This document shows positions 34,094 to 58,205 of a stretch of 64,000 nt of DNA, in pieces; position 1 is the first letter of the stretch, and every line of letters begins with the position of its first letter. The DNA comes from Rubripirellula amarantea (GTDB lineage Bacteria; Planctomycetota; Planctomycetia; Pirellulales; Pirellulaceae), in assembly GCF_007859865.1 (NCBI RefSeq), contig NZ_SJPI01000002.1:434001-498000 (forward strand), in the 5' to 3' direction. The position numbers and the translations under genes are program-made. The notes beneath the pieces were generated by a model that saw nothing but the letters and a program-made list of their open reading frames with translations, had not been told where the DNA came from and searched no databases.

Positions 34094-34537
34094 ATGCCAT
34101 TCTTAATGATCAACCTCGACGACCTTGGCGATTGCCAACGCGGAGTCCGACAATTACGCGAGCGACTGCGGCGTGCCGGTGTTGATCCACAGCCAGGGGA
34201 CAAAGGCGGCAACAAAACATCTGCGGACAAGCAGGGACCGGCCGCGTTGCCACTAAACCAAAAATTGCATCGCATCAGTCAGCGCGGGGTCTGGCGGTTT
34301 ATCTCTGGCATCGCCCGACTCGACGAATCCCCTCGTTCGCTCGCTGAACTCGACGAGGCGCTATCGCTGCAGCCCAACAAGATGCGGTCGACGAAAGCCA
34401 TCTTCGCGAAGCTGGAGAACCGATTCGATATCCGGTTCCTGCGATTGGCTGAAGAAGCGGGCGATGACGAAGCAGGCAATCCTCGCTACATCATGCCCCC
34501 GCGGATTCGCAAAGCCGTACGCGAAATGGCGGGTTAG
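34094..34537 (+). CDS. Small conserved protein of unknown function, possible winged-helix fold
   Basis: A 147-residue protein. The N-terminal part (MPFLMINLDDLGDCQRGVRQ and a charged Lys/Gly linker) is followed by a well-structured domain: HRISQRGVWRFISGIARL, SLAELDEALSLQPNKMRSTK, AIFAKLENRFDIRFLRLAEE, NPRYIMPPRIRKAVREM. Helix pattern and spacing suggest a winged helix-turn-helix, which is inference. A second copy of this C-terminal domain exists at 41899-42189. The two differ mostly at third codon positions while the proteins are nearly identical, so the domain has been under selection. Confidence 0.65.
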   Translation: MPFLMINLDDLGDCQRGVRQLRERLRRAGVDPQPGDKGGNKTSADKQGPAALPLNQKLHRISQRGVWRFISGIARLDESPRSLAELDEALSLQPNKMRSTKAIFAKLENRFDIRFLRLAEEAGDDEAGNPRYIMPPRIRKAVREMAG

Positions 34538-36422: not shown

Positions 36423-36633
36423 ATCCTGCATCGAAGCTCGTAGGTCATAAGGGGAAGATCGGCGAGGCTGCGCAAGCTGAGTGGAAGGCTATCGTTCAAT
36501 CGAGGTCAGTTGAGCAACAATCGCTTGCCTTGAACGTAGTGGAGCGTTAGTATCCCCCTGCCAGGGTGAGTTGTTCGCGCCTACGTCGATGCGTGAGCTG
36601 GCTTCCAAATACTTTGTATACCGTAGGTGTGCC

Positions 36634-39600
36634 ATGAATAGTGCTCGCGATCGAAGGTTTTCTCGCTCACTCCATTCATCGCGACGGTCGCGGCAATCAC
36701 CGCGAATTCGTCTTGCAGCGTTCGAAACGCTTGAACCTCGGAGGCTTTTGGCTGCCGAGATTCTGGATTCCATTGCAGGCGAACCCTCGCTCGCCGCATT
36801 CGAAAGTGTTATCCCCGGATCTAATGATCGCTTAACGTATAGCGACGTTTCGTATCGAGGAGATCGAAAAGAACCGGCGCAAGCGGGAATAGAGATATTG
36901 GCGATTGTTCAACCCGACAGTGAGTTTCGACTCGTGGAGGTCAAGCATGGAATAGCCAGCAGTCACGCAAGGTTCGAACAAGTTGTTGATGGCATACCAG
37001 TGTACGGTTCGTTTGCGTCTGTGCACCTGGGGCGCGATGGAGAAGTGCAAACTCTGCATGTTGATGCGCGGCCGGAGTTGGCGAGCCTGAAAGTAGAGAC
37101 ACCGAAGCTTGACATTGAAAATGCGACCGCGATCGCGATCAATAAGAACGGCGTAATCACCACTCGCTCACCAACTACCGGCAACTTGGTGTGGTATCCG
37201 GCAAAGGATGGCGGTGCGATGTTAGCGTGGGAAACTACAATCACGTCCAGTGTGCCGGTAGGCGATTTCCATACAGTGGTCAGCGCCGACACGGGTGAAG
37301 TGCTGTTTAAAGAGAATCGAGCTGTATTTGCAACGGGGACTGGAGACGTATTCTTACCCAATCCGTATCAAACCCAAGGCAGTGGTAGCGGACTGGCAGA
37401 CAATAGCGATGCGAATAGTGCAGCGTTGTCATCACAGCTTGTTTCCGTAACGCTTGAAAGACTTGATGCCGGAACCGGATTGCTTAAAGGTGAATGGGTT
37501 GACCTATCGACGTTGAATAGTTCAACACTTGCCGATGTTGACGCCGACGAAGCGACGCGAGTTTACGAGTACGATCGGGATGATCCACGTTTCGAACAAG
37601 TGGTGATTTATCACGCGATTGATTCCATTCAAGCGTACATCCACTCGCTTGGGTTTGATGATGACGTCGGGACACCCAACGGCATCCGTGATTTTCCAAC
37701 GTTGGCTAACGCTCATTGGGACAACGACGATCAATCGTTTTACTCCACAGCGGATGATGCAGTTCACTTTGGCGATGGAGGTGTTGACGATGGCGAGGAT
37801 GCTGACATCATTGCGCATGAATATGGTCATGCAATTCAACACGACCAAAACTCCAACTGGGGTGGCGGCGAAATGGGGGCGATGGGGGAAGGGTTCGGCG
37901 ACTATCTAGCCGCAAGTTTTTATGCTGGTGCGGGGGATTCCAACTATCAGTCGAGTGATGAAGCCTGCGTGGGCGAGTGGGACGCGACTTCGTATAGTGG
38001 ATCAAACCCTCCCTGCCTAAGACGCGTCGATGGCAACAAGATGTACCCCGACGACTTGGTTGGCCAGGTCCACGCCGACGGTGAAATTTGGTCTGCTGCG
38101 CTTTGGGAAATCCGCGCTGCCCTTGGAGCGTTGATAACCGACCAGCTCGTGTTGGAGCACCACTTTGCTTTACCCGCAGGTGCCACGATGCCGATTGCTG
38201 CGCAGGCGATGCTAACAGCCGACGCCAACTTGAACGGCGGCGTCAACCAAGCGGTGATTCGACAGGTGTTTTTATCACGCGGGATACTGCAAGCCACGCC
38301 AGCCGGGATTGTAAGCTTGGATCGTGACACCTATGACGTCGGCGATACGTTAACGATCGAAGTCGCAGATACGGATCTAAGCGGCAGCGGAACCGTCAAC
38401 GTGGTCGTGACAACCGACGCGGGCGATTCAGAAACGATAACTCTGACGGAATCCGGCGGCACATTTATTGGAACAATAGCTTCGACGTCTGGTGCAATCG
38501 TCCAGGACAATGGAAGTTTGGAAGCAGCGGGTGAAGATGTAGTCACGGTCACCTATTCGGATGCCGACGACGGCACTGGCAACCCTGCGGTGGTTGACGA
38601 TAGCGCTACCTTCTTGGAGTTCGACGTTGTTTTCAACGCTGACTTCTCCAATGAGATTGGAGATCCTGATGACGAAGGATTTGCAATCTCGGGTAGTGCA
38701 AACCAGTGGGAGCTTTCGACCGGCCGTGGATCGGACACGGGGCACAGTAGCGACGACAGCTTTTACTTCGGATCTGGCGAAGGTGCGACCGGAGGAGGTT
38801 CCTACGCCAATGACCAAGACGGCACTATTACATCGCCCCTAATCGACCTGACCCAAGCAACGATAGCCGAGTTGAGCTTCAATCACTTCCTGGAATCGGA
38901 AGCCGGCTATGACTTTGCCTCCGTCAGCATTGTCCAAGCCGGGACGGAGCACCTGATCGCTAAGTCGGGTGATGGGACACTTCCGATAGCCACTTCGGGT
39001 TTTGAGAGCCTTTCGCTTGACATATCCGCGTACGTTGGCGAAACAATTCAGGTTGCCTTTCGGTTCACCTCCGACTTCAGCATCACAAACGAGGGTTGGT
39101 ATGTGGACGACGTCGTTGTCCGGGCTGACGTTCCCGTCACTGAGAACGACTTTGGCGATGCACCTAATGTTTATCCAACGACTCTTCAAGACAACGGTGC
39201 TCATCACCTAGCCATCGGCCCCCTTTTGGGACCTAGTCGCGACGTCGAAGCGAATGGTCAACCAACGCTCGCGGCCGACGGTGATGGTGCGGACGAAGAC
39301 GGAGTGAGCTTTGGGTTGCTACGCATTGGCAATGTGGATGCGGAAGTCGACATCGACTTGCAAGGCGAGCCGAACGCAATGCTGGATGCTTGGATCGATT
39401 TTGATTCCAACGGAACCTGGGATGCCTCAGAACAAATTTTTGACAGCACGCAGATTTCTAACGGATTACAAACGCTCACTTTCGCGGTTCCCGAAACGGC
39501 GCTGATCGGTGATACGTACGCTCGCGTGCGAGTGAGTTCAGCGGGTGACTTAGAACCCACCGGATTCGCCCCCGATGGCGAGGTTGAAGACTATCTGGTC

Positions 39601-41319
39601 ACGATCGCGGATTTCTTCGCTAAGGATGACGTGGCCACGACTATCGAAACAGCGCCCGTGGAAATTTCAGCACTGGCGAATGACCAACCTTCGGATCAGC
39701 TGCAGATTGTGGCGGCGACTTCACCCACGAACGGAACTTTGATTCAAAACGGCGATGGCACTTTTACATACCAAGCCAATCCGGGCTTCGTTGGTACAGA
39801 TTCGTTCGAATACACGGTTGCGTTTACCAATGCCGAACTGATCAACCCTACGCCCAACGGCGGTGACCGCTACGGCTATTCGGTCGGTATCGACGGAGAT
39901 TACGCCATCGTGGGAGCGTATTACGATGACCCGAATGGATTGTCGAATGCGGGCACTGCGTTCGTCTACCATCGCACAAGCAACTCGGACTGGACTCAGA
40001 TGGCGCAGCTCAATGGAGACTTGAATTCCGATGATGAACAGAGTTACTTCGGTTGGAGTGTCGCGATCAGTGGCGACACCGTAGTCGTCGGTGCTCAAGG
40101 CGATGGCGACAAGGGGTTTCGCTCGGGCGCCGCTTACATCTTTGACCGGAACGAGGGTGGGACGGACAATTGGGGAAGAGTCGCTAAAGTTTATGGCGAC
40201 GATACCGACAAGAGCGACTTCTTTGGTCGGTCCATCGACATCGATAGTGACACGGTTGTTGTTGGCGCTAGCATCGCATCACCATTGGGCGCGGCCTCTG
40301 GTTCAGCCTACGTGTTTGATCGCAATCAAGGTGGATCTAATGCGTGGGGACAGACCAAGCAACTGCTCGGTAGCACGCAAGCCGCAGGTGACCGATTCGG
40401 TCAATCGGTATCCATTGACCATGATCGCGTCGCAGTCGGTGCATTCCGGCATGATGGGGCTGGAACAGATAGCGGGGCGGCCTACGTATTCGTTCGCAAC
40501 CGCTACGGTGCAGACAATTGGGGTGAACTTTCTGCCATCGAAGCTCCCGATGCAGCGGCTGCGGACAACTTTGGATACAGCGTCTCGATCAAGGGAGGGA
40601 GCCTCGCGGTCGGTGCGCCGCTTGATGATGAAGGTGGTCAAAATCAAGTCGGCTCTGTCTACATGCTGGGACAGAATACGGGCGGCAGCAACAACTGGGG
40701 CCAAGTTACCAAACTTCTCGCGAGCGATGCTACGGCCGGCGATCGCCTGGGCTGGTCCGTCGACTTTGATGGGACGCGGGTGATAACGGGCGCTCCGCTG
40801 GCTGACGTGTTTGGCGACTCGTCCGGAAGAGCGTATTTGTTTAGCAAGATCAATGGCGTGTGGTCTCAGTCACGAATACTGAGCAGTGACGAAGTCAGCT
40901 TGCGGGATCAATACGGAATTGGCGTTGCGCTCGATGGCAACATCGCCCTGGTCGGTTCCTGGCTCGACAACCGCCCCCACAACAACTCCGGCGGTGCGTA
41001 CTCCTTTGACCTACGCACCGACACGGCAAGAGTGTGGGTTAACGTAGATGCCGCGTCCGTGAAGTTCAATTTTTCTAATATTGTATTGGCGAAGGATGAG
41101 AGCGAACGGAACGTGGCGCCCGAATTGGTTGTGCAATCAAAGGATGCCTGGGAACCATGGAGCGATCGGAAGCGAAGAGGTTCAGCTCTCAATTCTCATA
41201 GCGTCGACGAAGTATTCACAAAGTTCGTTCAAAGAAGTGGTAGGGCAGATCCAAACGTTCTGTTGGATGAGGACAACATAAATGCCGAAGCGTTGCGAGA
41301 TCTGGGCATCGCGAATTAG
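36634..41319 (+). CDS. Giant secreted M36-like metalloprotease with GEVED domain and FG-GAP propeller
   Basis: A 1561-residue protein from ATG 36634 (the frame opens at 36571). The N-terminus has a basic stretch then FETLEPRRLLAA, the LEPR-XLL signature of large planctomycete surface proteins. Order: FTP/PepSY-like propeptide (FEQVVDGIPVYGSFASVHL); fungalysin-like protease with HEYGH (His395, Glu396, His399) and GEGFGDYLAASF; an immunoglobulin-like strand region; a jelly-roll ending NEGWYVDDVVV; a GEVED domain (AWIDFDSNGTWDASEQIFDS, ending GEVEDYLVTI); a cadherin/VCBS-like repeat (NGDGTFTYQANPGFVGTDSF); seven FG-GAP repeats (about 1080-1467); and a 90-residue tail shared with the next giant protein. 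Probable surface or extracellular protease; substrate unknown. Confidence 0.88.
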   Translation: MNSARDRRFSRSLHSSRRSRQSPRIRLAAFETLEPRRLLAAEILDSIAGEPSLAAFESVIPGSNDRLTYSDVSYRGDRKEPAQAGIEILAIVQPDSEFRLVEVKHGIASSHARFEQVVDGIPVYGSFASVHLGRDGEVQTLHVDARPELASLKVETPKLDIENATAIAINKNGVITTRSPTTGNLVWYPAKDGGAMLAWETTITSSVPVGDFHTVVSADTGEVLFKENRAVFATGTGDVFLPNPYQTQGSGSGLADNSDANSAALSSQLVSVTLERLDAGTGLLKGEWVDLSTLNSSTLADVDADEATRVYEYDRDDPRFEQVVIYHAIDSIQAYIHSLGFDDDVGTPNGIRDFPTLANAHWDNDDQSFYSTADDAVHFGDGGVDDGEDADIIAHEYGHAIQHDQNSNWGGGEMGAMGEGFGDYLAASFYAGAGDSNYQSSDEACVGEWDATSYSGSNPPCLRRVDGNKMYPDDLVGQVHADGEIWSAALWEIRAALGALITDQLVLEHHFALPAGATMPIAAQAMLTADANLNGGVNQAVIRQVFLSRGILQATPAGIVSLDRDTYDVGDTLTIEVADTDLSGSGTVNVVVTTDAGDSETITLTESGGTFIGTIASTSGAIVQDNGSLEAAGEDVVTVTYSDADDGTGNPAVVDDSATFLEFDVVFNADFSNEIGDPDDEGFAISGSANQWELSTGRGSDTGHSSDDSFYFGSGEGATGGGSYANDQDGTITSPLIDLTQATIAELSFNHFLESEAGYDFASVSIVQAGTEHLIAKSGDGTLPIATSGFESLSLDISAYVGETIQVAFRFTSDFSITNEGWYVDDVVVRADVPVTENDFGDAPNVYPTTLQDNGAHHLAIGPLLGPSRDVEANGQPTLAADGDGADEDGVSFGLLRIGNVDAEVDIDLQGEPNAMLDAWIDFDSNGTWDASEQIFDSTQISNGLQTLTFAVPETALIGDTYARVRVSSAGDLEPTGFAPDGEVEDYLVTIADFFAKDDVATTIETAPVEISALANDQPSDQLQIVAATSPTNGTLIQNGDGTFTYQANPGFVGTDSFEYTVAFTNAELINPTPNGGDRYGYSVGIDGDYAIVGAYYDDPNGLSNAGTAFVYHRTSNSDWTQMAQLNGDLNSDDEQSYFGWSVAISGDTVVVGAQGDGDKGFRSGAAYIFDRNEGGTDNWGRVAKVYGDDTDKSDFFGRSIDIDSDTVVVGASIASPLGAASGSAYVFDRNQGGSNAWGQTKQLLGSTQAAGDRFGQSVSIDHDRVAVGAFRHDGAGTDSGAAYVFVRNRYGADNWGELSAIEAPDAAAADNFGYSVSIKGGSLAVGAPLDDEGGQNQVGSVYMLGQNTGGSNNWGQVTKLLASDATAGDRLGWSVDFDGTRVITGAPLADVFGDSSGRAYLFSKINGVWSQSRILSSDEVSLRDQYGIGVALDGNIALVGSWLDNRPHNNSGGAYSFDLRTDTARVWVNVDAASVKFNFSNIVLAKDESERNVAPELVVQSKDAWEPWSDRKRRGSALNSHSVDEVFTKFVQRSGRADPNVLLDEDNINAEALRDLGIAN

Positions 41320-41859
41320 ACAGTCGATCAGTGCGAACAGTTTGGCGGGAATTGTCGGTCGAACCACGTTGTCGGAATACTCGTTTAGGCCTTTGAGGGA
41401 TTCTTTGCGGGAAGGTGTTCGCAAACGAGAAAAATGTTTCGTCGGCCATTGATTCGGCGAACGCCAGCGATAGAGTGGATGACGTAACGAATCGAAGTTG
41501 TAGTTTAACTTGTTTCGGCTACCTCCTATCTTGAACACTTCTCCTCCGCGTTGATGCCAAACAGCTGGTAGGCAAGGTCCATCTTAGGTTGCGTTCTTTG
41601 CGTTTCCTATTTTTCCAAGGCCTTTCCATGTCGATCGTATCCGCGCTGCGCAATTCTTGCTCGAAAAAAGTTTTGGTTCCGTTAGCAAGTCTCAAGGCAG
41701 GTCACTGGTTCCCGCCAAGCTTAGCAAGCGCATCAAGCGATTGATGATTATCGAAACGTTGGAATCTCGTGAGCTTTTAACGGCCGCGACAGGAGACCAC
41801 CGGTTTTTTGGTGCGATCGCGAATCCTGGTCAAACCGACACATTTGAGTTTTCGTTGGC
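41058..41859. repeat. 0.8-kb direct repeat, copy A
   Basis: Starts within the C-terminal tail of the first giant gene (CGTGAAGTTCAATTTTTC), continues through the intergenic DNA and ends in a copy of the first about 70 codons of the third giant gene. It matches 48832-49624 nearly base for base with a few indels. The spacing between copies is 7774 bases. The intergenic part 41320-41627 contains no gene of its own. Confidence 0.92.
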
Positions 41860-42189
41860 GGCAACAAAACATCTGCGGACAAGCAGGGACCGGCCGCGTT
41901 GCCGCTGAACAAAAAATTGCATCGCATCAGTCAGCGCGGGGTTTGGCGGTTCATCTCAGGCATCGCCCGACTCGACGAGACGCCTCGTTCACTTGCTGAA
42001 CTTGATGAAGCACTGTCACTGCAGCCGAACAAAATGCGATCCACCAAGGCGATCTTTGCAAAGCTAGAAAACCGCTTCGACATCCGCTTCCTGCGCTTGG
42101 CCGAAGAAGGCGGCGACGATCAAGCAGGTAACCCACGCTACATCATGCCCCCAAGAATCCGCAAAGCCGTCCGCGAAATGGTCGGCTAA
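41628..42189 (+). pseudogene. Chimeric relic: N-terminus of the third giant gene joined to the C-terminal half of the 34.1-kb gene
   Basis: From ATG 41628 the sequence copies the start of the gene at 49404 (MSIVSALRNSCSKK, LESRELLTAATGDHRFFGAI), but indels shift the frame. At 41857-41859 it switches abruptly to sequence matching 34205 onward, and the first 47 bases are identical to that gene. The joined parts are in different frames, so no fusion protein is made. A 96-codon frame from TTG 41899 still encodes the conserved C-terminal domain (HRISQRGVWRFISGIARL through IRKAVREMVG) and could be translated separately. No ribosome binding site is evident for it. Confidence 0.85.
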
Positions 42190-42556
42190 CTTGCCGAAAT
42201 CGTCGGGTAAGTTGCAACGAAGAGACTTCTTGGTTTACTGCCGAGAGATAGGCCGACAAGCAAACTTCCTCGTTGGCTGGTCTCACAGTTTGCATGGCCG
42301 AAGTGAAAGTTTGAAAGTTCGAGCGACAAAACGCTTTGACTGCATGCTGCTTTCACGCGGATTTTACTTGCCATGCGATCTTCGAATCCGCGAGCACTCG
42401 CTCGTGAAAACGTCTTGAACAGCTGTCGTACGCGCTTCGCGTTTCTGCCTCCCACAGGGGTACATTGCTAGCGGAGGGGGGGTATAGTGTACGGGCTTTA
42501 AGCTGTAGTTCGGGTTTACGGGCAAAACCTTTTCAAGACACGTTGGGATCTCTGGG
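42190..42556. other. Intergenic region upstream of the second giant gene
   Basis: Contains a G-rich run at 42474-42482 followed by TATAGTG, which may belong to the promoter of the gene at 42557. No supported gene, RNA or terminator is seen. Confidence 0.35.
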
Positions 42557-45500
42557 ATGGCACCTCGGTCAATCAAACTAGTTCGGCGTCAACGATATCG
42601 CCGCGCACTGATAGCTCGTCACGCACTGCCATTTCGGCGCGCACTGAAATGTGAATTGCTGGAGCGTCGAGATCTCTTAGCAGGATCGCTCGAGTCGTTT
42701 TGCCCCGATTCCGATCACGGCGAAACCTTCGTTGTATCCGCCGTCGAGTCTCAATACTTTGCCGCGGACTCAGCCTCGTTGAACGCCGGTATTCAGCTGA
42801 TGATTGATTCGTCCGACGAGGATGATCTCTACTTTGAAGGCCACCCTGATTCTCACCATCACGATGAACACCATCACGAAGAGTTCGGTGATCTAGAGGC
42901 CGTGGCGTTGTCCGACGGCATCGAGTTCTACCGAGCCAACGGTCGTTTTACGACCACGGCAACTGACGGAAGCGGGCTAACCTTCGGCGACCCGGCGACA
43001 TTGACGTGGGGATTCGTCAATGACGGGACTAGCATTCCCGGGGGGGCTGTTCCAGGCGAGGTCACGGCTCCGAGTGACCTGATTGCATTTCTCGGCGGGA
43101 TCTATGGAGTTACCACGAACGATACGAACTATCAGGATGAGCCATGGTTTCCACTGATTGAGTCGACCTTTGATCGTTGGGAAGAACTTTCCGGGGTGAC
43201 CTACGTTTACGAACCGAACGATGATGGTGCGTCGTTCCCTGGTTCACCAGGAGTGCTAGGCGTTCGTCCCGATATTCGTCTCTCTGGCCATGCGTTGGAC
43301 GGCAATTCCAATGTGCTTGCCTACAACAGCAGTCCGAATCTCGGTGACATGGTCATCGACACCACTGATTCGGTCTACAGCAATACGTCGTTGAACTCAC
43401 GGCGGCTAAGAACGATTGTTGCCCATGAGCACGGCCACGGACTTGGGCTCAGTCACGTCGTTTCGAATAACGCGTCGTTTCTGATGGAGCCATCTTTGAA
43501 TGTTGGATTTGATGGTCCGCAGCTTGATGACATCTACGGCATCCAACGTCTTTATGGCGATGCGCTCGAACCAAATGATTCGCTATCGGATGCCACCGAC
43601 CTCGGAGTGATAGCGACGGGCGGTTCCATCGATCTTGGGGGTGATGCCACCGATACGGTGGTCGATATTTCTGATACGGGATTCTTAACGGTCGACGACC
43701 AATCCGATCTCGACATGTATGCTTTCACGATTGATGCAGCGTCTGATGTGACCGTGACAGTCACGCCAGTCGGACCGACGTACAACGAAGGCCCGCAGGG
43801 CGGTGTTCAGGCACCCTACGATTTGCTCACTCGTGCAGATCTTATTCTCGATTTGCTCGACGCCAGCGGAAACGTGATCTCGAGTAGTGACATCAGCGGT
43901 CTCGGAGGGGCTGAGTCGATCAATTCAATCTTGCCTCAGGCAGGAACCTATCATGCTGCGATTTCTACCGAGACCGCGCTGGCTCAGTTCTATGAACTAT
44001 CGATCGACGTAGTGACGACACCGGCAGTCAACGTTCGACCTGACGTCGCGGGATCGAATTTGCGCGAGGGCGGGGCCGTGGAGTCGTATCAACTATTCTT
44101 AGGCACGACTCCGAACGGCGAAGTGGAAGTGACCGCGACGGCGGATGATCAGCTCGAGATCAGCCTGGACGCGATCGAGTTCTCGCAATCATTGACGGTG
44201 ATTGCGAACGATGAAACACCCATCGATATCTTCGTTCGTGCCGTCGATGACAACATTTTTGAAGGAAGCCACACCGGAACCATCCAGCATCAAATCACTT
44301 CCACTTTCGATGAAACGGACTATCCGCTTTCACTTAGTGTCGCGCCGCTGCAAGTGAGCATCGACGATAACGAACTGGGCAGTTGGCAACCGGTAGCGCC
44401 AGACGCGGGGCAAATTCTCAAGAGCGTTGGCAATGAAGGTTCGCTTTCAGATGCAACTGACGTTCGTTTTTTCAATTTTGAACTCAACGCGGGGGAAACT
44501 CTCGCAGTGACGGCTCAACCGGACACCAACGAAACGCTCATTGTAGAGTGGCTGGGAGTATCACCGCCGGTTAGTTCGCCTGCACCAGGATCCGACGTCG
44601 TCATGACTTCGACGGTGGCGCTATCGACGGGGGTGCAGCAACTCAAGGTGACTGGAAGTGGCGCGACCGATTTCACTCTGGATGCTTGGCGGAATGCTGT
44701 TTTAGAAGACCTGCATAGTGATTCAAGTATGGCCACCCCTTTGCCTCTTGTGGCTGGCTTAGGTGTGGTCGATGTGAACCCGAACAATGCGGCGGTCTAT
44801 GGGGTCATTGGCAAATCAGAGGCAGCGCCGGGAACGACCGTTGAGTTAGTCCAAAGAAGCGCGCCAACCGAGTTTGTTGACCTGTCGTTGCTGCCCGCGT
44901 CCAACACGTTCATGCTTAACAACAACTCATCGTTGTCGACTTCGATTTCAGTGGGTAACGAGGTCTTCCCTGCGGGAGTGTGGAAGATGTATGACAATGG
45001 CAGTTTGATTCCGACAACCGACTTAACGATCCCGTTGTTTCAGGACAACACCGCGATTCCGAACTCAGGGATCGACACTGCCATGATCCCGTTTTGGGAC
45101 GATCTCGATGCAAGCCTTATTTACTACGACGAGATCGTAATCGACGGAATTCCTGCGTTTGTGGTTCAATGGCAGGATCGTCCGCATCGCAGTTTCGGTG
45201 GCGCGGTAACGTTCCAAGTTCAGGTCTTTGATAGCGGTCCCCTCTTGGCTAAGTATGCCTATCAAGACGTGTTCTTTGGGAATGCAAGTGTTGATCAAGG
45301 AGCTTCGGCTACGGTGGGCTTTCAGTCTGATAGCACGACAGCCGTCTCAGTTAGTACAAACTCTGCGTCGCTTAATGACGGAGACGTCGTGGACGTTCAG
45401 TTCGCGCTAGAACCAGATGTGGATGCGTACTCTATTGATTGGACTGGCAAGGTGGGGACGACAGTCGATGTCGTCTTGGAAGCACTTGGCACCGAGAGTT

Positions 45501-49093: not shown

Positions 49094-49624
49094 GGCGGTC
49101 GATCAGTGCGAATAGTTTGGCGGGAATTGTCGGTCTGACCACGTTGGCCGGGATACTCGTTTATGCATTTGAAGGATTCTGTGTGGGAAAGCATTCGCAA
49201 ACGAGAAAAATGTTTCGTCGGCCATTGATTCGGCGAACGCCAGCGATAGAGTGGATGACGTAACGAATCGAAGTTGTAGTTTAACTTGTTTCGGCTACCT
49301 CCTATCTTGAACACTTCTCCTCCGCGTTGATGCCAAACAGCTGGTAGGCAAGGTCCATCTTAGGTTGCGTTTTTTGCGTTTCCTATTTTTCCAAGGCCTT
49401 TCCATGTCGATCGTATCCGCGCTGCGCAATTCTTGCTCGAAAAGAGATTTCTGTTCCGTTAGCAAGTCACTGGTTCCGATCAAACCTATCAAACGCATCA
49501 AGCGATTGATGATTATCGAAATGTTGGAATCTCGTGAGCTTTTAACGGCCGCGACAGGAGACCACCGATTTTTTGGTGCAATCGCGAATCCTGGTCAAAC
49601 GGACACGTTTGAGTTTTCGTTGGC
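48832..49624. repeat. 0.8-kb direct repeat, copy B
   Basis: Counterpart of 41058-41859: the tail of the second giant gene, the intergenic DNA 49094-49403 (no gene of its own) and the first about 70 codons of the third giant gene. Here the downstream gene is intact, so this copy is probably the parental arrangement. Confidence 0.92.
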
Positions 49625-52600
49625 CGCGCCGCAACAGTTGTGGTTTGATACGCTCACCAATGACGCAAACATCTCATGGTCCATGGAAGGTGGGCAAGGG
49701 GCAGTTGCATCGTATGCGTTCTCGAATGACGACCAGGTCTTTGGCACTCAACCAGCAGGCGATTACACGGTCACCGTTTCGGGCAACGCTGACTACACCG
49801 GTTCTTATGCGTTTTGTGTTCTGGAAATGTCAACCTTAGCGACTTCGATCGCCGTGGATACAACGATCAATGGAGTCGTCGACCCAACCATCACCGCTAA
49901 TCTTTACAGTTTTGCTGGGACGGCCGGGACCAGTGTTTACGTCGAATCGCTGAGCAACACGACTACTGATCTCAATGGCTATACGGCATCATGGTACGTT
50001 TACGATCACTATGGTACTCAGTTGGCTTCCAACTATTACTTCGCGAATGACCTCGGTCGCATCGACTTGCCAATTACGGGGACGTACACGATTGCCATTC
50101 AAGGCAATATCAATGCGACAGGGGGAACCGAAACTTACGCGTTGAAAGTTTATTCTGTCGCTGACACAACGACGGCGTTTACGCTTGGCACCGCCGTAGC
50201 GGGCAACACGACGGCTCCCGGCCAAGCGAATGAGTACACGTTCACTCTCGCCTCACCCACCAGTCTGTACTTCGACAGCCAAACCAATGACGGCAGCCTT
50301 CACTGGAGTCTGAAGGGGCCACAAGGAAACGTGGTGAGTCCAACTTCGTTTAACTACGACGACAATGTGATCGGCCTGATGCCAGCGGGCACTTACACGC
50401 TGACCGTCAATCGCAACGACGCAACCACGGGCGGCTACGCATTCAATCTGATCGACCTGGCAAATGCGACCGCGATTACGACCGGAAGCGTAGGCACCCC
50501 GGCCGGTCCGACGGTCACGGGAACACTGAGCCCCGCTGAATCGGCCAAGGCTTACAAGTTCACGGGTATCGCTGGCAATCGCTTGTTGTTCAACAACATC
50601 AACACCTCGGGCGACAGTGCACACTGGATACTGCTCGATCCATACAACAACGTCGTGTTCGATGACTACACGAGCACCGATCAAAGCAACGTTGTGATCT
50701 CGGCCAGTGGCACGTACACGTTGGTGATGGCGGGATACCTTGGCAACACGGTTGCGCCGTCGTTTGATTTCCAAATCAACTATCAATCGAACACCACGCC
50801 ACCAACCATTCCCGGAACGGTCATCACACTCGGAACCGTCAAAAATGGAACCATTCCTGCTGGTGGCATTAGTTTTTATAAGTTCACGCTAGCCAGTCCC
50901 ACGCAGTTGTACTTTGATGCTCGAACCGACAACACCAGTCTCGGCTGGACCTTGATCGGGCCGCAAGGAACCGTGATCAACTCTTACCCATTAGGTGCCT
51001 ATTACGAAAACACCGGCGATGTTTTCATCGGGCTGATGCCCGCAGGCACCTATGCGCTGCAAATCGCTGGACCCGCTTCGACTGCTTTTTCATTCAACAT
51101 GCTCGATGTGGGCGTGGCAACGAGCGTCACCCTTGATACTCCAGTGAGTAGTTCGGTATCGGCACGCGCAACCAAGCTCTATCGATTTGCGGGCACTGCT
51201 GGCACCGCCGTTTATGTTGATGTAACAACAAGTTCAAACAATCTCGAATGGAGGTTGTACGACCCGTTTGGAAATGTGGTTCCGATTGAGGGACCGGCAA
51301 CCTCGGTGGGGCGTTTTGAGTTACTCGCAACTGGTGACTACACGCTTGCCGCGGTAAGCGATCTTTACGCGACAGGATCATCAAACTTTACCTTCAACGT
51401 TGAGAACGTCGTTGACACAACAACGGCGTTAACCTTGGGTGTTCCCGTGACCGGCACTATTTCAGTGCCTTCCCAAGTGAAGGACTATAGCTTTACGTTA
51501 ACGCAGCCCACGCGATTGTGGTTTGATATTCAGTCGGTAGACAGCTTTGAAAATTATTGGCAGTTGATCGGACCGCTGGGCAACGTTGTCGCTGGCACAT
51601 GGTTTGCCTATGACGACACAGACATCGGTCTTCAACCAGCGGGCGACTACACGTTGCAGTTAACGAGATCGTACAACACGACCGGCAGCTTTAGCTTCAA
51701 TCTGCTTGACGTCGCTACAGCATCCAGTCTTACGATTGGAACGCAGCAGAACGACACTCTGGTTGGTCCCGTCACCAAGCTCTACAAGTTCACGGGAACA
51801 GCGGGGACGAGTCTGTATGTTGATTCCGTCAGTGATTCGACAAATGATCCCAACGGATACGCGGCGTCATGGTGTTTGTACGATCCCTATGGAACTCAGT
51901 TAGTCACAAATGCGTTTATCTATGACCTTGGACGCTTTGATCTTGAAACCAGCGGGCCGTACACACTTGCGGTGATCGGGCATCTGAATTCCATCGGCAC
52001 CGAGTCGATTGCATTTAAGGTCTCAAGCACCGCCGACACAACCACGGCGCTGACTTTGGGAACACCGGTCACAGGAAACATTGCAACGCCTGGTCAGATC
52101 GACAAATACACGTTCACGCTCGGCGCTCCGGCTCAGCTTTGGTTCGATAGTCAGTCGGGTACTGCCTATCAAACCAATTGGCAGTTGGTCGGGCCGCAAG
52201 GCAACGTGGTAAGTAGCACCTACTTCAATTACGACGATCACATCATCGGCCTCATACCGGCGGGTGACTACACGCTGGAAGTGAATGAATCAGGCGGAGC
52301 CACTGGGACTTACGCATTCAATTTGTTGGACTACGCCGCTGCGATGAACCTAACGCTGGGTACCCCCGTCAGCGACACCCTCGTTGGTCCGGCGACGAAG
52401 CTTTATCAGTTTGCTGGCACGGCTGGTACGAGCGTGTTTGGCAACTCAATTAGCGATACGACTGACGATCCCAATGGATACACTGCTGGCTGGAAAGTCT
52501 ACGATCAGTACGGAACGCTTGTCGGACAAGCATCGTATCTAGCCAACGACATCGGCCGCATCGACCTGCCAACGACGGGAACGTACACGGTGGTCATCCA

Positions 52601-55600
52601 GGGCAACTACAATTCCACGGGAACCGAAACTTTCACGTTCAATGTCTCATCGATCACCGACTCGACGACGCCCCTGACACTGGGCAGCGCTGCGACTGGC
52701 AATACAGCGATGCCAGGGCAAGTGAACAAGTACACGTTTACCCTCGGTGCCCCCACCTCGCTCTACTTTGACGTCCAGACGTACGACACCAGTCTTTATT
52801 GGAGTTTGACCGGACCACAAGGACAAGTTGTCAATCAAACATGGTTCTACTACGACGATCAAGTGATCGGATTAGTGCCTGCTGGCAACTACACGTTGAC
52901 GCTGGAGCGATCCGACGACAGCACCGGAAATTATGCCTTCAACATGCTTGACTTCGCCAATGCAACCGCGATTACCACCGGCACCTCGGGCACTCCGGCT
53001 GGACCCACGGTATCGGGTTCGTTGAATCCTGCGGAATCGGCCAAGGCTTACAAATTTACTGGCGTCGCAGGCAATCGCTTGTTGTTCAACAACATCACCA
53101 ACTCGGGCAATCCGGCCAACTGGATTTTGCTGGATCCGTACAACAATGTTGTCTTCAACGACAGTATTGCTAACGATCAAAGCACGGTGATCATGACCGC
53201 TAGTGGCACCTACACGTTGGTCATGACTGGCCAACTGGGCAACACGATTTCGCCAGCGTTCAGTTTCCAAATCAACTACGAATCCAACGTCACCCCACCC
53301 GCCATTCCAGGCACGACGATTACGTTGGGAACCGCCAGAACCGGTACGATTCCGGCTGGTTTGACTAGCTTTTTTAAGTTCACGGTTGCGAGTCCGACTC
53401 GGCTGTTCTTTGATAGTCGGACCGCTGACAACAATCTGACTTGGAATTTGATTGGTCCCCAAGGTACCGTGGTCAATTCCTACTACTTTGGCCCCTACAA
53501 CGAAAGCACAGGTGATTTATCGATCGGCTTGATGCCGGCTGGTACTTATGCATTGCAAGTCTCTGGACCCTCCGGCACCCCATTCGCATTCAACATGCTC
53601 GATGTCGGTGCGGCGACCAGCGTGACGCTTGGCGCGACCACCAGCAGTTCGGTAGCAGTTCGTACGGCGAAGCTATACAAGTTCGGCGGCACCGAAGGAG
53701 ACAACGTCTACCTCAGTTCCACCACGAATTCGACTACGACCGAGTGGGCTTTGTTTGATCCTTATGGCAATCAATTGTCAAACGCGACGATGCCCAACGC
53801 CCTTGGCCGTTTTGAACTTCCGTCGACAGGTGACTACACCGTTGCCATCCAAAGCAATGGCTATGCGACAAGCACGGCGAACTTCGCCTTCAAAGTTCAA
53901 CCGGTGACGGACCAGACGTCACCGTTGACGTTGGGCACTCCCGTCACGGGTAGCATTACCGAGCCTGCTCAGGTCAGCCGATACACGTTCACGCTCTCGA
54001 CGCCGAAGCAGCTCTGGTTTGATAGCCGAACGGACGATGCCAGCCAAATCGTTTGGAGCCTTAAGGGACCGCAAGGAACCGTCGTCGCAGTTAACTACTT
54101 TAGCTACGATGACCAGGTCATCGGATTGATGCCAGCAGGTGACTACGTGTTAGAAGTCTCGAGGCCCGACGACAGCCTTGGAGCGTTCGCGTTTAACTTG
54201 CTGGATCATGCCGCAGCAACGAACCTGACCTTAGGGCTGCCCGTCACCGATAGCATAGTCGGTCCCGTGACCAAACTATATCAGTTCGCGGGAACCGCCG
54301 GAACGAGCGTATTTGTTGATTCGATTAGCGACACTACGAATGATCCCAATGGCTACACCGCATCGTGGATCGTGGTGGACAAATTCGGTGCCGTTGTGGC
54401 GTCGAACAGCTACTTGAGCAACGATCTTAGTCGCATCAACATGAATTCGACGGGCATGTACACGTTGGTGGTTCAGGGAAGCCTCTTTTCGACGGGCACC
54501 GAGAGCTTCTCGTTCAATGTTCGCAGCGTCAGCGATGACGATCGTCAACTTTGGGGAACCCCTGGAAGCGATTCGATGGTGGTTGAGTACCTCGGTGCTA
54601 CGACACGTGATGTCTATCTGAACGGCTATCTGGCCGGAACGCTGTACGGTGTCGAACCGTTGACGCTTGATGGCAAGGCTGACACGGATTCGCTTAGCGT
54701 GATCGGAACCAGCGCCGCGGATGCTTTCGCAATCACGCCGACGGAAGTCAACCTGGGCTCGGTTTCCAACTTGGTGGCGGACATCGAAAGCCGCAGCGTT
54801 AACGGTGGATCCGGGGCAGATACGTTTAGCTACTCAGGCAGCAACCCCGATCTAACGCTGTTGGGTGGCGCAGGTCTTGATACGTTTAGTCCTGGCAACG
54901 CAGCGACAGTCTACAGCATCGACGGCGGCGCAAACGGTGCCACCATCAACTACTCCGCAAGTACTGTCGGAGTGGTGGTGGATCTTGCCGGTAGCATCCT
55001 CACGGGCGTCACACAGTTTTCCAACGTCACCGGTGTAGTGGGAAGTCCGCAAAGTGATGCGCCGATCGGTGCCTCGTTTGGCAAAACGGCACTCGAAGAC
55101 ACTGCCTATACGTTCACAGTCGCCGACTTTGCCTTCACCGACCCGGGCGACGTTCCCGCTCACGCATTGCAAGCCGTCAAGATAGCGACGCTGCCTGCCG
55201 CAGGCGTATTGACCAACAACTCCGTTGCCGCTGTCGCTGGAGACAGTGTCTCGGCGGCCGACATTGTGGCTGGCAATTTTAAGTTCACTAGCGCAATCAA
55301 TGCGAGTGGCCCGACGTACGCCAGCTTTACGTTCCGAATTCAAGATAACGGGGGAACAGCAAGCGGCGGACTAGACTTGGACCCAACGGCTCGAACGGTG
55401 TCCATCGCGGTCGCACCCGTCAATGATCCACCGGTACAAACCGCTGGTACGGTATCGCCGTTAAGTGTGCTTGAAGATTCCCCGATCACGACCTTTGGAC
55501 TGACTGGATTGACGTTTGGGGCTGGTGGCGGTAGCGATGAATCGACTCAAACGCTGACTTACAAAGTAACGGAAATTCCCGCGTCGATCGGTGGCGTCTA

Positions 55601-58205
55601 CTTGAGCGACAACACCACGGCGGTGGTGCTCAATAGCACCTATAGCATCTCGCAAATTCAAGGCATGAAGTTCCTGCCACTTTCCAATGCAAACGGTGCG
55701 GACAATTTCGTGGTTTCCGTTGCAGACAACGGCGGCACGACCAATGGCGGTGTCGATACACTGTTGGTCACGATTCCGGTCACCGTGACATCGGTCAACG
55801 ATGCACCCATGGGCGTCGCAACCTCCGTTTTATTGCCTGAGGACACGAGCTACACCTTCAGTCTCAGCGACTTCACCTTTGCCGAAGCGTCGGACAATCC
55901 TGCCAACGCTCTGCTCGCGGTAAAGTTGACAACGATCCCGGCTGTGGGAAGCATTACCAACGACAACGTTCCTGTCGTGGCGGGTAATAATGTATCAGTT
56001 AGCGACATCGTATCCGGTAAACTCAAGTTCACTCCGGTGCCAAACGCCAATGGAACGTCCTACGCAGGCTTCACGTTCCAAGTGCAAGACGACGGTGGAA
56101 CGGCCAACGGAGGAATCGACTTGGATTCAACGCCTAAAGCGTTTTCGTTGAACGTCACGTCAGTCAATGACGCACCGCTGGGAACATCAAACGTCATCAA
56201 CCTGTCGGCTACTGGCGTTTATACGTTCGTCGCCAACGACTTTGGGTTCAGCGATCCCAACGATTCGCCGGCTGACTCGTTCTTGGCGGTCAAGATCACA
56301 ACGCTTCCGAGCTCAGGAGCCTTGACCAACAACGACGTTGCGGTCACACCTGGGACTAGTGTCTTGGTCAGCGACATCGCTACCGGGAAATTCAAGTTCA
56401 CCTCGATAGGATCGAGTTCAGCGACCTTTATGTTCCAGGTTCAAGATGATGGTGGAGTGACCAACGGCGGCGCGGATACTGATTCGAACGCAAAGTCAAT
56501 CTCACTGGTGTCTGCTTTTGTTGCTGTCAATGACTCTGAATTTGCTGGCACCGCACTTCCAGCCTACGTGTCGGTACTCGACAATGATATCCCAAGTGGT
56601 GTGCTGCAAGTGATCGGTGCTACCAACGCTGCCAATGGTTCAGTCACGGTCGTTGGCAGCGATGTCGTATACACATCCAACCCAGGCTTTACTGGAACTG
56701 ATTCGTTTGACTACACGATGGCTTTGCAGGACGCTGAACTTGTCAGTTCGGCTGCCAGCAGTGGAGATCGGTTTGGGTATTCCGTCGACGTTGATGGCGA
56801 CTACGCAGTCGTGGGAGCCTACCTTGACGATCCGAGCGGGCGAACCAACGCGGGCTCGGTGTTCATCTACCGTCGCACCGGTCCCACCACTTGGACTCAA
56901 GTCAAACTGCTCAACGGCGACCTGAACGTAGATGACGCCCAAAGCTATTTCGGTTGGAGTGTTGCGATCAGTGGCGACACGGTGGTCGTTGGTGCGCAAG
57001 CGGACCGAGACAATGGCTTCAAAGCGGGTGCGGTTTACGTGTTTGATCGCAACGAAGGCGGGGCAGACAACTGGGGCCGTGTTGCCAAGATTTATGGTAG
57101 TGACACAGACAAAAACGACTACTTCGGTCGATCCATCGACATCAGCGGCGATACCATCGTCGTCGGTGCAAGTATCTGTGGTTCGTTGGGTGCAGCCGCT
57201 GGCGCTGCGTATGTGTTCCAACGTAATCAAGGCGGTACGAATGCTTGGGGCCAGACAAAGAAACTGGTCGGCAGCACTCAAGCCGCTGGCGATCGCTTTG
57301 GTCAATCAGTTTCGATCGACAACAACACGATCGTCGTGGGAGCATTCCAAAATGACGTTGTCGCCAACAACGCGGGCGCCGTGTTTGTGTTTGACCGGGA
57401 TACTGGCGGCGCGAATAACTGGGGTGAGCAAAAGGCGGTTTACGCAGTTGATGCAAGCGCAGTCGACTACTTCGGCTATTCGGTAGCCGTGTCAAACGGC
57501 GTGATAGCTATCGGAACCCCGCTCGATGACGAACCTGGCAAGAACCAAACCGGATCGGTCTATGTGATCAGTCAAAACCAAGGCGGAACCAACAACTGGG
57601 GACAAACGGCACGGCTATTGACGGCCAACCCAGTCGCCGGTGATCGCTTGGGATGGTCCGTCGCCATTGACGGTAATCGGATCGTCTCGGGCGCCATTCA
57701 AGCCGACATCGGTGGCGACCGTTCGGGTAGCGCCTACCTGTTTGAAAACGTCGCTAGCACATGGTCGCAAACGCGAGTGCTGGTCAACGACAAAGTCACG
57801 ACCGCCGACGAGTACGGTGTCAGCATCGCTCTAGACGGCGACATGGCGATCGTCGGATCGTGGCTAGACAATCGACCGGTCAACAATTCTGGTGGCGCTT
57901 ACGCGTTTGACCTTCGCACCGACACCGCGACCGTCACGGTTGACGTCTCTTCACCTCCGTCTGAGGTGCCATCAGTCGTATCGTCGAATTTGGCTGGTGG
58001 CGAAAGCGATGATCTGGTGATGTCGGTCTTGTCCGATGCGCAGGCGTCGCCAGTCGCGACTAACCAGCCATTGAGGCATCAAGCCATGAAACCTCTTGAA
58101 GCAGAACAGGTCGACTTCCTATTCACGTCGGATGCAATTGACACCCGAGAAGAAAATGTCGTCCTTCTTAGTGCCGTTGCGCTAGGATTAGAGTTTTTTT
58201 GGTAA
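49404..58205 (+). CDS. Giant secreted beta-repeat protein with VCBS/cadherin-like repeats and FG-GAP propeller
   Basis: About 2933 residues from ATG 49404 (AAGG about 9 bases upstream; the frame opens at TTG 49365). LEPR-XLL-like signature: MLESRELLTAATGDH. Residues about 60-1710 form eight two-part beta units. The first half ends in a motif such as FNYDDHIIGLIPAGDYTLEV; the second half contains KLYQFAGTAGTSVFV and NDLGRIDLPTTGTYT. These resemble bacterial pre-peptidase C-terminal domains. Then come a calcium-binding-like segment (NGGSGADTFSYSGSNPDLTL), several cadherin/VCBS-like repeats (EDTAYTFTVADFAFTDPGDV and relatives, each ending VNDAP or similar) and seven FG-GAP repeats (about 2454-2838). 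The unique C-terminus ends in SAVALGLEFFW. No enzyme domain is seen, so an adhesin or surface-layer role is likely. Confidence 0.87.
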   Translation: MSIVSALRNSCSKRDFCSVSKSLVPIKPIKRIKRLMIIEMLESRELLTAATGDHRFFGAIANPGQTDTFEFSLAAPQQLWFDTLTNDANISWSMEGGQGAVASYAFSNDDQVFGTQPAGDYTVTVSGNADYTGSYAFCVLEMSTLATSIAVDTTINGVVDPTITANLYSFAGTAGTSVYVESLSNTTTDLNGYTASWYVYDHYGTQLASNYYFANDLGRIDLPITGTYTIAIQGNINATGGTETYALKVYSVADTTTAFTLGTAVAGNTTAPGQANEYTFTLASPTSLYFDSQTNDGSLHWSLKGPQGNVVSPTSFNYDDNVIGLMPAGTYTLTVNRNDATTGGYAFNLIDLANATAITTGSVGTPAGPTVTGTLSPAESAKAYKFTGIAGNRLLFNNINTSGDSAHWILLDPYNNVVFDDYTSTDQSNVVISASGTYTLVMAGYLGNTVAPSFDFQINYQSNTTPPTIPGTVITLGTVKNGTIPAGGISFYKFTLASPTQLYFDARTDNTSLGWTLIGPQGTVINSYPLGAYYENTGDVFIGLMPAGTYALQIAGPASTAFSFNMLDVGVATSVTLDTPVSSSVSARATKLYRFAGTAGTAVYVDVTTSSNNLEWRLYDPFGNVVPIEGPATSVGRFELLATGDYTLAAVSDLYATGSSNFTFNVENVVDTTTALTLGVPVTGTISVPSQVKDYSFTLTQPTRLWFDIQSVDSFENYWQLIGPLGNVVAGTWFAYDDTDIGLQPAGDYTLQLTRSYNTTGSFSFNLLDVATASSLTIGTQQNDTLVGPVTKLYKFTGTAGTSLYVDSVSDSTNDPNGYAASWCLYDPYGTQLVTNAFIYDLGRFDLETSGPYTLAVIGHLNSIGTESIAFKVSSTADTTTALTLGTPVTGNIATPGQIDKYTFTLGAPAQLWFDSQSGTAYQTNWQLVGPQGNVVSSTYFNYDDHIIGLIPAGDYTLEVNESGGATGTYAFNLLDYAAAMNLTLGTPVSDTLVGPATKLYQFAGTAGTSVFGNSISDTTDDPNGYTAGWKVYDQYGTLVGQASYLANDIGRIDLPTTGTYTVVIQGNYNSTGTETFTFNVSSITDSTTPLTLGSAATGNTAMPGQVNKYTFTLGAPTSLYFDVQTYDTSLYWSLTGPQGQVVNQTWFYYDDQVIGLVPAGNYTLTLERSDDSTGNYAFNMLDFANATAITTGTSGTPAGPTVSGSLNPAESAKAYKFTGVAGNRLLFNNITNSGNPANWILLDPYNNVVFNDSIANDQSTVIMTASGTYTLVMTGQLGNTISPAFSFQINYESNVTPPAIPGTTITLGTARTGTIPAGLTSFFKFTVASPTRLFFDSRTADNNLTWNLIGPQGTVVNSYYFGPYNESTGDLSIGLMPAGTYALQVSGPSGTPFAFNMLDVGAATSVTLGATTSSSVAVRTAKLYKFGGTEGDNVYLSSTTNSTTTEWALFDPYGNQLSNATMPNALGRFELPSTGDYTVAIQSNGYATSTANFAFKVQPVTDQTSPLTLGTPVTGSITEPAQVSRYTFTLSTPKQLWFDSRTDDASQIVWSLKGPQGTVVAVNYFSYDDQVIGLMPAGDYVLEVSRPDDSLGAFAFNLLDHAAATNLTLGLPVTDSIVGPVTKLYQFAGTAGTSVFVDSISDTTNDPNGYTASWIVVDKFGAVVASNSYLSNDLSRINMNSTGMYTLVVQGSLFSTGTESFSFNVRSVSDDDRQLWGTPGSDSMVVEYLGATTRDVYLNGYLAGTLYGVEPLTLDGKADTDSLSVIGTSAADAFAITPTEVNLGSVSNLVADIESRSVNGGSGADTFSYSGSNPDLTLLGGAGLDTFSPGNAATVYSIDGGANGATINYSASTVGVVVDLAGSILTGVTQFSNVTGVVGSPQSDAPIGASFGKTALEDTAYTFTVADFAFTDPGDVPAHALQAVKIATLPAAGVLTNNSVAAVAGDSVSAADIVAGNFKFTSAINASGPTYASFTFRIQDNGGTASGGLDLDPTARTVSIAVAPVNDPPVQTAGTVSPLSVLEDSPITTFGLTGLTFGAGGGSDESTQTLTYKVTEIPASIGGVYLSDNTTAVVLNSTYSISQIQGMKFLPLSNANGADNFVVSVADNGGTTNGGVDTLLVTIPVTVTSVNDAPMGVATSVLLPEDTSYTFSLSDFTFAEASDNPANALLAVKLTTIPAVGSITNDNVPVVAGNNVSVSDIVSGKLKFTPVPNANGTSYAGFTFQVQDDGGTANGGIDLDSTPKAFSLNVTSVNDAPLGTSNVINLSATGVYTFVANDFGFSDPNDSPADSFLAVKITTLPSSGALTNNDVAVTPGTSVLVSDIATGKFKFTSIGSSSATFMFQVQDDGGVTNGGADTDSNAKSISLVSAFVAVNDSEFAGTALPAYVSVLDNDIPSGVLQVIGATNAANGSVTVVGSDVVYTSNPGFTGTDSFDYTMALQDAELVSSAASSGDRFGYSVDVDGDYAVVGAYLDDPSGRTNAGSVFIYRRTGPTTWTQVKLLNGDLNVDDAQSYFGWSVAISGDTVVVGAQADRDNGFKAGAVYVFDRNEGGADNWGRVAKIYGSDTDKNDYFGRSIDISGDTIVVGASICGSLGAAAGAAYVFQRNQGGTNAWGQTKKLVGSTQAAGDRFGQSVSIDNNTIVVGAFQNDVVANNAGAVFVFDRDTGGANNWGEQKAVYAVDASAVDYFGYSVAVSNGVIAIGTPLDDEPGKNQTGSVYVISQNQGGTNNWGQTARLLTANPVAGDRLGWSVAIDGNRIVSGAIQADIGGDRSGSAYLFENVASTWSQTRVLVNDKVTTADEYGVSIALDGDMAIVGSWLDNRPVNNSGGAYAFDLRTDTATVTVDVSSPPSEVPSVVSSNLAGGESDDLVMSVLSDAQASPVATNQPLRHQAMKPLEAEQVDFLFTSDAIDTREENVVLLSAVALGLEFFW
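49590..54530 (+). repeat. Higher-order internal duplication in the giant gene (period about 2.49 kb)
   Basis: The eight beta units fall into two blocks of four, with unit 1 like 5, 2 like 6, 3 like 7 and 4 like 8. For example, the unit with AITTGSVGTPAGPTVTG recurs as AITTGTSGTPAGPTVSG, and the unit with TGDVFIGLMPAGTYALQ as TGDLSIGLMPAGTYALQ. Matching positions are about 2490 bases apart (50218 and 52707; 51470 and 53964). Confidence 0.85.

Follow-up and report, generated by a model that had tools for sequence, protein, structure and literature searches.

A C-terminal cassette with a propeller apparently nested in an Ig domain is carried behind different fronts by eighteen proteins of Rubripirellula amarantea

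Three neighbouring genes of Rubripirellula amarantea, here called A, B and C, raise the question of why proteins with such different fronts should end in the same way, and whether the common end belongs to these genes or to a larger set. All three are open reading frames on the + strand of the window, that is, the whole stretch of 64,000 nucleotides analysed here (contig NZ_SJPI01000002.1, positions 434,001 to 498,000), and each has the cassette that is our subject at its C-terminal end. Gene A (36571..41319) encodes 1582 aa. An earlier note on this DNA began it at 36634, which is an internal ATG; the ORF begins at 36571, and ATG codons at 36589 and 36634 are alternatives. By Pfam its front has FTP, M36, InhA-like MAM and GEVED domains, of which the M36 (fungalysin) domain covers residues 409-572 (37795..38286) and has the HExxH motif, as HEYGH, by eye. 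Gene B (42557..49093, 2178 aa) has an M10 (matrixin) domain at residues 243-334 (43283..43558; HExxHxxGxxH by eye) and two PPC stretches. The front of gene C (49365..58205, 2946 aa) has Cadherin_3, Big_9 and Cadherin_4 matches and a long repeat array. The claim that the three fronts are distinct is upheld by Pfam for the M36 domain of A and the M10 domain of B, but the ‘PPC-like array’ described for C is not supported by Pfam, which assigns none of that array to PPC. Sulfatase genes flank the A-C cluster on both sides, and the gene downstream of C has a weak ceramidase match, below the cut-off.

The common end of the three proteins includes a propeller of seven repeats, at 39826..41013 in A, 47600..48787 in B and 56727..57914 in C. 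The earlier note had counted seven FG-GAP repeats per gene. The count is correct, as PF14312 matches seven times in each of A, B and C (Pfam, E 1e-86, 3e-94 and 2e-85, respectively), but the family is FG-GAP_2 and not classic FG-GAP, for which (PF01839) no match was found in A, B or C with 150 of 167 candidates scored. The propeller coding regions are also similar at the DNA level, as had been stated: A and B are 71% identical over 1468 bp, a value partly due to a recent copy, B and C 69% over 1261 bp, and A and C 65% over 1290 bp. For gene B, the one propeller whose structure was predicted, the model has the integrin-alpha fold. A Foldseek search with it gave 284 hits at E 0.001 or better, the best at E 9e-17; the best 50 of the 284 are all integrin structures by title, and the TM score to the target reaches 0.68 among the 50 listed.

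What precedes the propeller had been described as a cadherin/VCBS-like repeat. It is better described as the opening part of an Ig domain, which resumes after the propeller. In A, B and C the Pfam match to Big_9 halts at position 74-75 of 89, which indicates that the end of the domain is missing before the propeller. This first part lies at 39619..39819 in A and 56520..56723 in C, from Pfam and the junction alignment, and at 47381..47596 in B, from Pfam and the AF2 model. The proposed last strand of the split domain comes after the propeller, and reads RTDTARVWVNV... in A (41014..41055) and RTDTATVTVDV... in C (57915..57956), both assigned from sequence, and RTDTATVWVEV... in B (48788..48829), where the AF2 model and a truncation control were also used. 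In all eighteen proteins of the set described below the order is the same: Big_9 up to DSFDYT or a variant of it (D[SAT]FxY...), then a propeller of 388-397 residues, then a strand like RTDTATVTVTV. In intact Ig domains of this genome and of relatives such a strand comes after a DSFTYT-like run and a short hairpin, and in the cassette the Big_9 domain is complete only when the post-propeller strand is counted. Several stand-alone propellers of other bacteria (for example L054, L059, L068 and L073) stop within about 4 residues of the last blade strand, which suggests that the extra strand is probably not part of the propeller itself.

Two further analyses bear on the split. An HMM was built from 19 intact Ig domains, and the first part of each cassette was joined to every 14-mer downstream of it, giving 426-523 alternatives per protein. 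The true post-propeller 14-mer was unbeaten by alternatives more than 4 residues away in 12 of the 18 proteins. In C1_2446712, A, B and C2_1421375 a few distant segments scored better, with at most 11 better pieces in all, and in C2_1374336 and C2_1387768 the test gave no support. The AF2 model was made from the gene B cassette aligned with those of A and C and with 45 outside relatives (45 of the 63 outside stretches listed), and has a pLDDT of 89.7 and a pTM of 0.86. As assigned by DSSP, the model comprises the strands of the Ig domain, a short strand (79-81), the blades and then a long strand (474-483). In the truncation control, which lacks the first Ig part, the pLDDT of the whole model was 92.7 and the propeller blocks stayed at 90 or above, and the long strand after blade 7 was gone, a short strand at 405-408 standing in its place. 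The fall in pLDDT at this point was moderate: control block 401-410, equivalent to residues 477-486 of the full model, has a pLDDT of 54, against 84 (471-480) and 67 (481-490) in the full model. From DSSP, the sequence and this one truncation control we infer how the strands of the nested Ig domain would pair. Taken together, the Big_9 part, the propeller and the post-propeller strand look like one composite unit, an Ig domain split by a propeller, a reading that is supported but not proved.

The unit is not confined to genes A, B and C. In the R. amarantea genome we found 128 FG-GAP_2 matches on two contigs (150 of 176 candidates scored), and these resolve into eighteen ORFs with seven matches each, plus two weak matches inside an ORF of 14314 aa. 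This pattern of eighteen times seven indicates that the repeat number is beyond chance. The three proteins of the earlier note all belong, and the true set has eighteen members. The shortest of the ORFs has 610 aa and the longest 14314 aa, and the cassette is C-terminal in all eighteen. Nearly 490 residues of it can be aligned, and the stretch after it varies in length and sequence. The cassettes are 56-80% identical to one another, with 116 alignment columns invariant across the eighteen. General recent homogenisation of the cassettes was considered and is ruled out by this range of identity, long recent blocks being present in two pairs only. The named front domains of the set are M36, M10, PL8 lyase, GH10 with PA14 and CBM_4_9, PKD, PPC and LTD, in a Pfam scan that covered 15 of the 18 members in full, the last 1673 aa of C2_1374336 and the two largest giants except for their interiors. 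Six members have mutually related fronts (41-63% identity). Three giants of the family (4465, 11073 and 14314 aa) adjoin one another at G000:C2:1373979-1464088, and five further members lie within one 24-kb stretch.

The earlier note had proposed monophyly of the propellers as a test of its idea, and in a quick tree the eighteen form a single clade, on one side of a branch with SH-aLRT 100 against 45 outside propellers, the same 45 as were aligned for the structure model. Our comparisons further show that fronts and propellers have separate histories. The front of C2_270865 is 71% identical to part of the gene C front (240 aa), and its propeller groups with those of C1_2446712 and C2_1374336. 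The fronts of C1_3517648 and C2_1374336 are 57% identical. In AU tests of groups picked after the front comparison and the propeller grouping, trees that held the C2_270865 propeller with that of gene C were rejected (p 5e-5), as were those with the propellers of C1_3517648 and C2_1374336 as sisters (p 2e-74); the propellers of A and B held as sisters were not rejected (p 0.07). In the cases tested the fronts thus shuffle with respect to the propellers, and the idea of a constant propeller behind different fronts gains support.

Recombination may be one way in which this has come about, and the window holds footprints of it. A block of 858 columns (41005..41859, + strand) is 93.5% identical to 48779-49624 and takes in the end of blade 7, the tail, the intergenic stretch and the first codons of gene C. 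Upstream of it the identity of the A and B propellers is 52-75% per 60-base window, climbing to 80% at the block edge, and within it the tail of gene A (41056..41319) is near-identical to that of gene B by sequence comparison. In the gap between A and B there is also a scar (41857..42181, + strand), an 86% copy of 34205-34529, and this source overlaps a 147-aa ORF that has no Pfam match over the cut-off. Seen as a whole, the gap (41320-42556) is a patchwork of copies, some of 49098-49627 and some of 34205-34529. Elsewhere in the genome, C1_3527395 and C1_3532703 have 361 bp in common at 90% across the last blade and the tail. We infer that gene B was inserted between A and C by recombination via the cassette end, the order of events being likewise a reconstruction from the sequence.

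At the position of the propeller some related proteins have an end of dockerin type instead. A relative of the gene B front in the congener G012 (65% over 1364 columns) has a dockerin-like pair by eye at its end and has no propeller; Pfam finds neither FG-GAP_2 nor Dockerin_1 in it, and the dockerin-like ends of G012 and of a second congener, G021, gave no PF00404 match at E 0.05. Within R. amarantea, the front of C1_3644933 matches L181 at 39% over 1190 columns, and L181 ends in two Dockerin_1 stretches (E 7e-12). Among 21 congeners the PL8 front had no match and the gene C front no full relative with another C-terminal end, only one partial match to a 310-aa part in G013. The M36 part of gene A likewise had no full relative with another end in the congeners, its matches lying mainly in the GEVED region. 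The swapping of a whole end therefore rests on two cases. The best reading of these data is that the cassette can take the place of a dockerin and spreads by recombination. A further pair, C2_278707 and a GH10 protein of G021, was rejected as close orthologues; they match at 26% over 1278 aligned columns and are similar in architecture only.

The L-E-x-R-x-L-L signature that had been reported for the three genes was found again, as LEPRRLL in A, LERRDLL in B and LESRELL in C, with a basic leader by eye. By regex it is present in 15 of the 18 cassette proteins, once as LERRRML. The motif is thus common to these fifteen and to the LEPR-XLL / Planc_extracel proteins, and it carries no information on the C-terminal cassette. 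The corresponding models (NF012209, PF07595) matched only gene A of the three, below their curated cut-offs in the Pfam and NCBIfam scans, where B and C had no match; in the genome search gene A was above the LEPR-8K cut-off. That profile search was too insensitive, and a degenerate LEPR pattern gave 62 matches against 33 for a backward control, so that many single LEPR matches, and some of the 30 ORFs kept, must be due to chance. In the three members without the motif the start of the front is missing, or the front is divided between ORFs. C2_270865 (region G000:C2:270505-273153) has a front without its start; C2_365489 (region C2:365216-368101) has a leader-like stretch in a separate ORF of 42 aa just upstream; in both the cassette is open and has seven repeats. 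In C1_3532703 (G000:C1:3529353-3534151; L036, L037) the front and the cassette are separate ORFs, of 1007 and 610 aa, in different frames, which may be either a genuine break or a sequencing error.

For the other LEPR-type proteins of the genome we sampled 40 regions, a part of the sites, and kept 30 ORFs, of which 26 are closed. By regex, 10 of these 26 non-family ORFs have dockerin-like repeats within their last 300 aa and the 18 cassette proteins have none, and PF00404 (Dockerin_1) had no match in the 15 cassette proteins scanned in full. Seven of the ten ORFs with dockerin-like ends (set L160-L198) terminate in the residues LF, as do the relative of gene B in G012 and two of the 18 cassette proteins. 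At E 0.1 the C-terminal ends of A, B and C matched no NCBIfam model of a sorting domain (T9SS or PEP-CTERM); in the front of gene A there are weak matches, below the cut-off, to choice-of-anchor J and to a T9SS-dependent M36 model.

We propose that the cassette, shared by eighteen proteins, is an interchangeable retention module that keeps secreted enzymes close to the cell, a proposal that we consider to have an even chance of being right. It would consist of an Ig domain of the Big_9 type and, inserted in the last hairpin of this domain, a closed seven-bladed propeller of integrin type, followed by a variable tail. The first Ig part would join the front to the propeller, and the strand right after it would close blade 7; after the last blade the chain would return to complete the Ig domain, and the propeller would be held by both its ends. 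The propeller would then bind to something in the surface or matrix of the producing cell itself, an exopolysaccharide being the likeliest candidate, and the proteases, lyases and xylanases would stay close by. Other LEPR proteins in this genus have a dockerin-type module at the corresponding position, and a new front would enter the set whenever recombination between two cassettes exchanges the part upstream. Export, surface retention and the ligand are predictions. Anchoring appears to be the most likely role because one constant module is combined with many activities, is C-terminal and stands in place of a dockerin-type end. The front families M36, M10, PL8 and GH10 are enzymes acting on extracellular polymers. 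A precedent for the role is the propeller of the Vibrio proteins Bap1 and RbmC, which binds the exopolysaccharide VPS (PMC10102183), a conserved propeller there tying variable domains to the organism's own exopolysaccharide. Bap1 and RbmC, however, are two adhesins and not enzymes, the likeness drawn here is one of role, and the available text of that paper does not describe a propeller within an Ig domain.

Other explanations of a constant end have to be weighed against anchoring. The propeller could act like a carbohydrate-binding module and target a substrate outside the cell, such as an algal or animal polysaccharide or a matrix protein, instead of holding the protein to its own cell. Integrin propellers do bind external ligands, as the available text of PMC3192720 has it, and the PL8 and GH10 fronts act on polysaccharides. 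A module for the substrate would, however, be expected to vary with the enzyme, and here a near-constant one accompanies proteases, a lyase and a xylanase with different substrates, in the position of the dockerin-type end of some relatives; we regard outside targeting as rather unlikely. The position of the cassette at the C-terminus of all eighteen proteins, behind different fronts, is also what would be seen if it were an export or sorting signal for a secretion machine, comparable to T9SS C-terminal domains, and took no part in binding once the protein is mature. But about 490 alignable residues and seven full blades far exceed what a signal needs, and what lies past the cassette varies in length and sequence, which makes this explanation improbable.

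The cassette might, finally, be a passenger of repetitive genes as these duplicate and recombine, in an ordinary family expansion in which no common function was selected. The recombination footprints at A/B and at C1_3527395/C1_3532703 are in keeping with this, as are the three members whose front is incomplete or split between ORFs. Those same three members nevertheless keep an open cassette frame with seven repeats, and 116 alignment columns are invariant across the eighteen; an expansion of this kind we consider improbable. Returning to anchoring, we speculate, as a doubtful extension of it, that each species of the genus tags much of its giant secretome with a C-terminal cassette of its own, a badge matched to a species-specific receptor or exopolysaccharide. 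A region of G021 is of interest here (C24:28003-64868; L151, L152), where seven tandem LEPR proteins in 37 kb share a GEVED / Ig-like / dockerin-like cassette that is 60-91% identical over the last 300 aa; Pfam gives GEVED in the two members scanned, and Big_5 weakly in one. A second species of the genus thus has multiple copies of a cassette of another kind. If the badge reading were true, the enzymes of one species would be kept by that species, with fronts entering and leaving by recombination at the cassette, and it would become testable by what means bacteria on surfaces keep their secreted enzymes from being lost to neighbours.

The three genes had been put forward as a candidate for an undescribed system, which needs qualification. 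Bacterial integrin-type propellers have already been described (PMC3192720), and the present one resembles them in its seven repeats and in the integrin titles of the best 50 of its 284 Foldseek hits. It differs from them, as far as the available text goes, in being apparently nested in an Ig domain, in its FG-GAP_2 subtype and in its eighteen copies behind different fronts; the main text of that paper does not contain the word ‘cadherin’, and ‘inserted’ is used there of the I or A domain of integrins. Giant proteins of planctomycetes that have domains of adhesion type have likewise been described (PMC7717043, PMC11573180). The Dockerin_1 ends of such proteins (PMC11573180) share with the cassette the C-terminal place in LEPR-type proteins of this genome, but a dockerin is a short EF-hand pair. 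Other FG-GAP_2 propellers, in bacteria and within the Planctomycetota, belong to the same repeat family, some with seven repeats in a row by regex, but in many cases the protein is short and has its propeller close to the N-terminus, and a split Big_9 was seen in none of the ORFs inspected. Such a cassette is named nowhere among the matches listed from the open-licence PMC literature, where we also found no paper on LEPR-XLL and planctomycetes. What is new is not the propeller but its arrangement, a known propeller in an apparently nested, amplified and front-swapping C-terminal cassette. An integrin-type propeller here serves as an end module that can be exchanged, and it seems to lie within an Ig domain; the cassette offers a concrete unit with which to test how giant secreted enzymes are retained by planctomycetes close to their cells.

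In R. amarantea the cassette profile scores 861-944 bits. No full cassette was found in 59 nearby genomes, 21 of them congeners, with up to 23 candidates scored (best 182 bits, in G044; best congener 130 bits, in G009), or in a phylum sample of 391 other Planctomycetota genomes, a few of which also belong to the nearby set, with the top three candidates per genome scored (best 286 bits), and the counts of both surveys are lower bounds. Among FG-GAP_2 relatives, a set that may omit records near the R. amarantea genome, no ORF with a split Ig domain was flagged in 80 of 109 loci by regex and junction inspection, and no split Big_9 was seen in ten of the regions with long or Ig-overlapping profile matches. 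The best reading of these surveys is that the cassette is lineage-specific, so far seen only in the R. amarantea genome. The surveys also turned up giants of other kinds. In genus g46 (G128, G239, G296, G357, G408, G442 and G446; L212-L218) there are proteins of thousands of residues with at least one FG-GAP_2 propeller amid stretches that are Calx-beta-like by eye, so that the same propeller is put to use in another way; that of G239 was considered as a full cassette and rejected, its upstream stretch being Calx-beta-like by eye and without a split Big_9. In G376 (L204, L221) a propeller lies, by eye, between the two halves of an apparent cadherin-type repeat, so that nesting may have arisen there independently.
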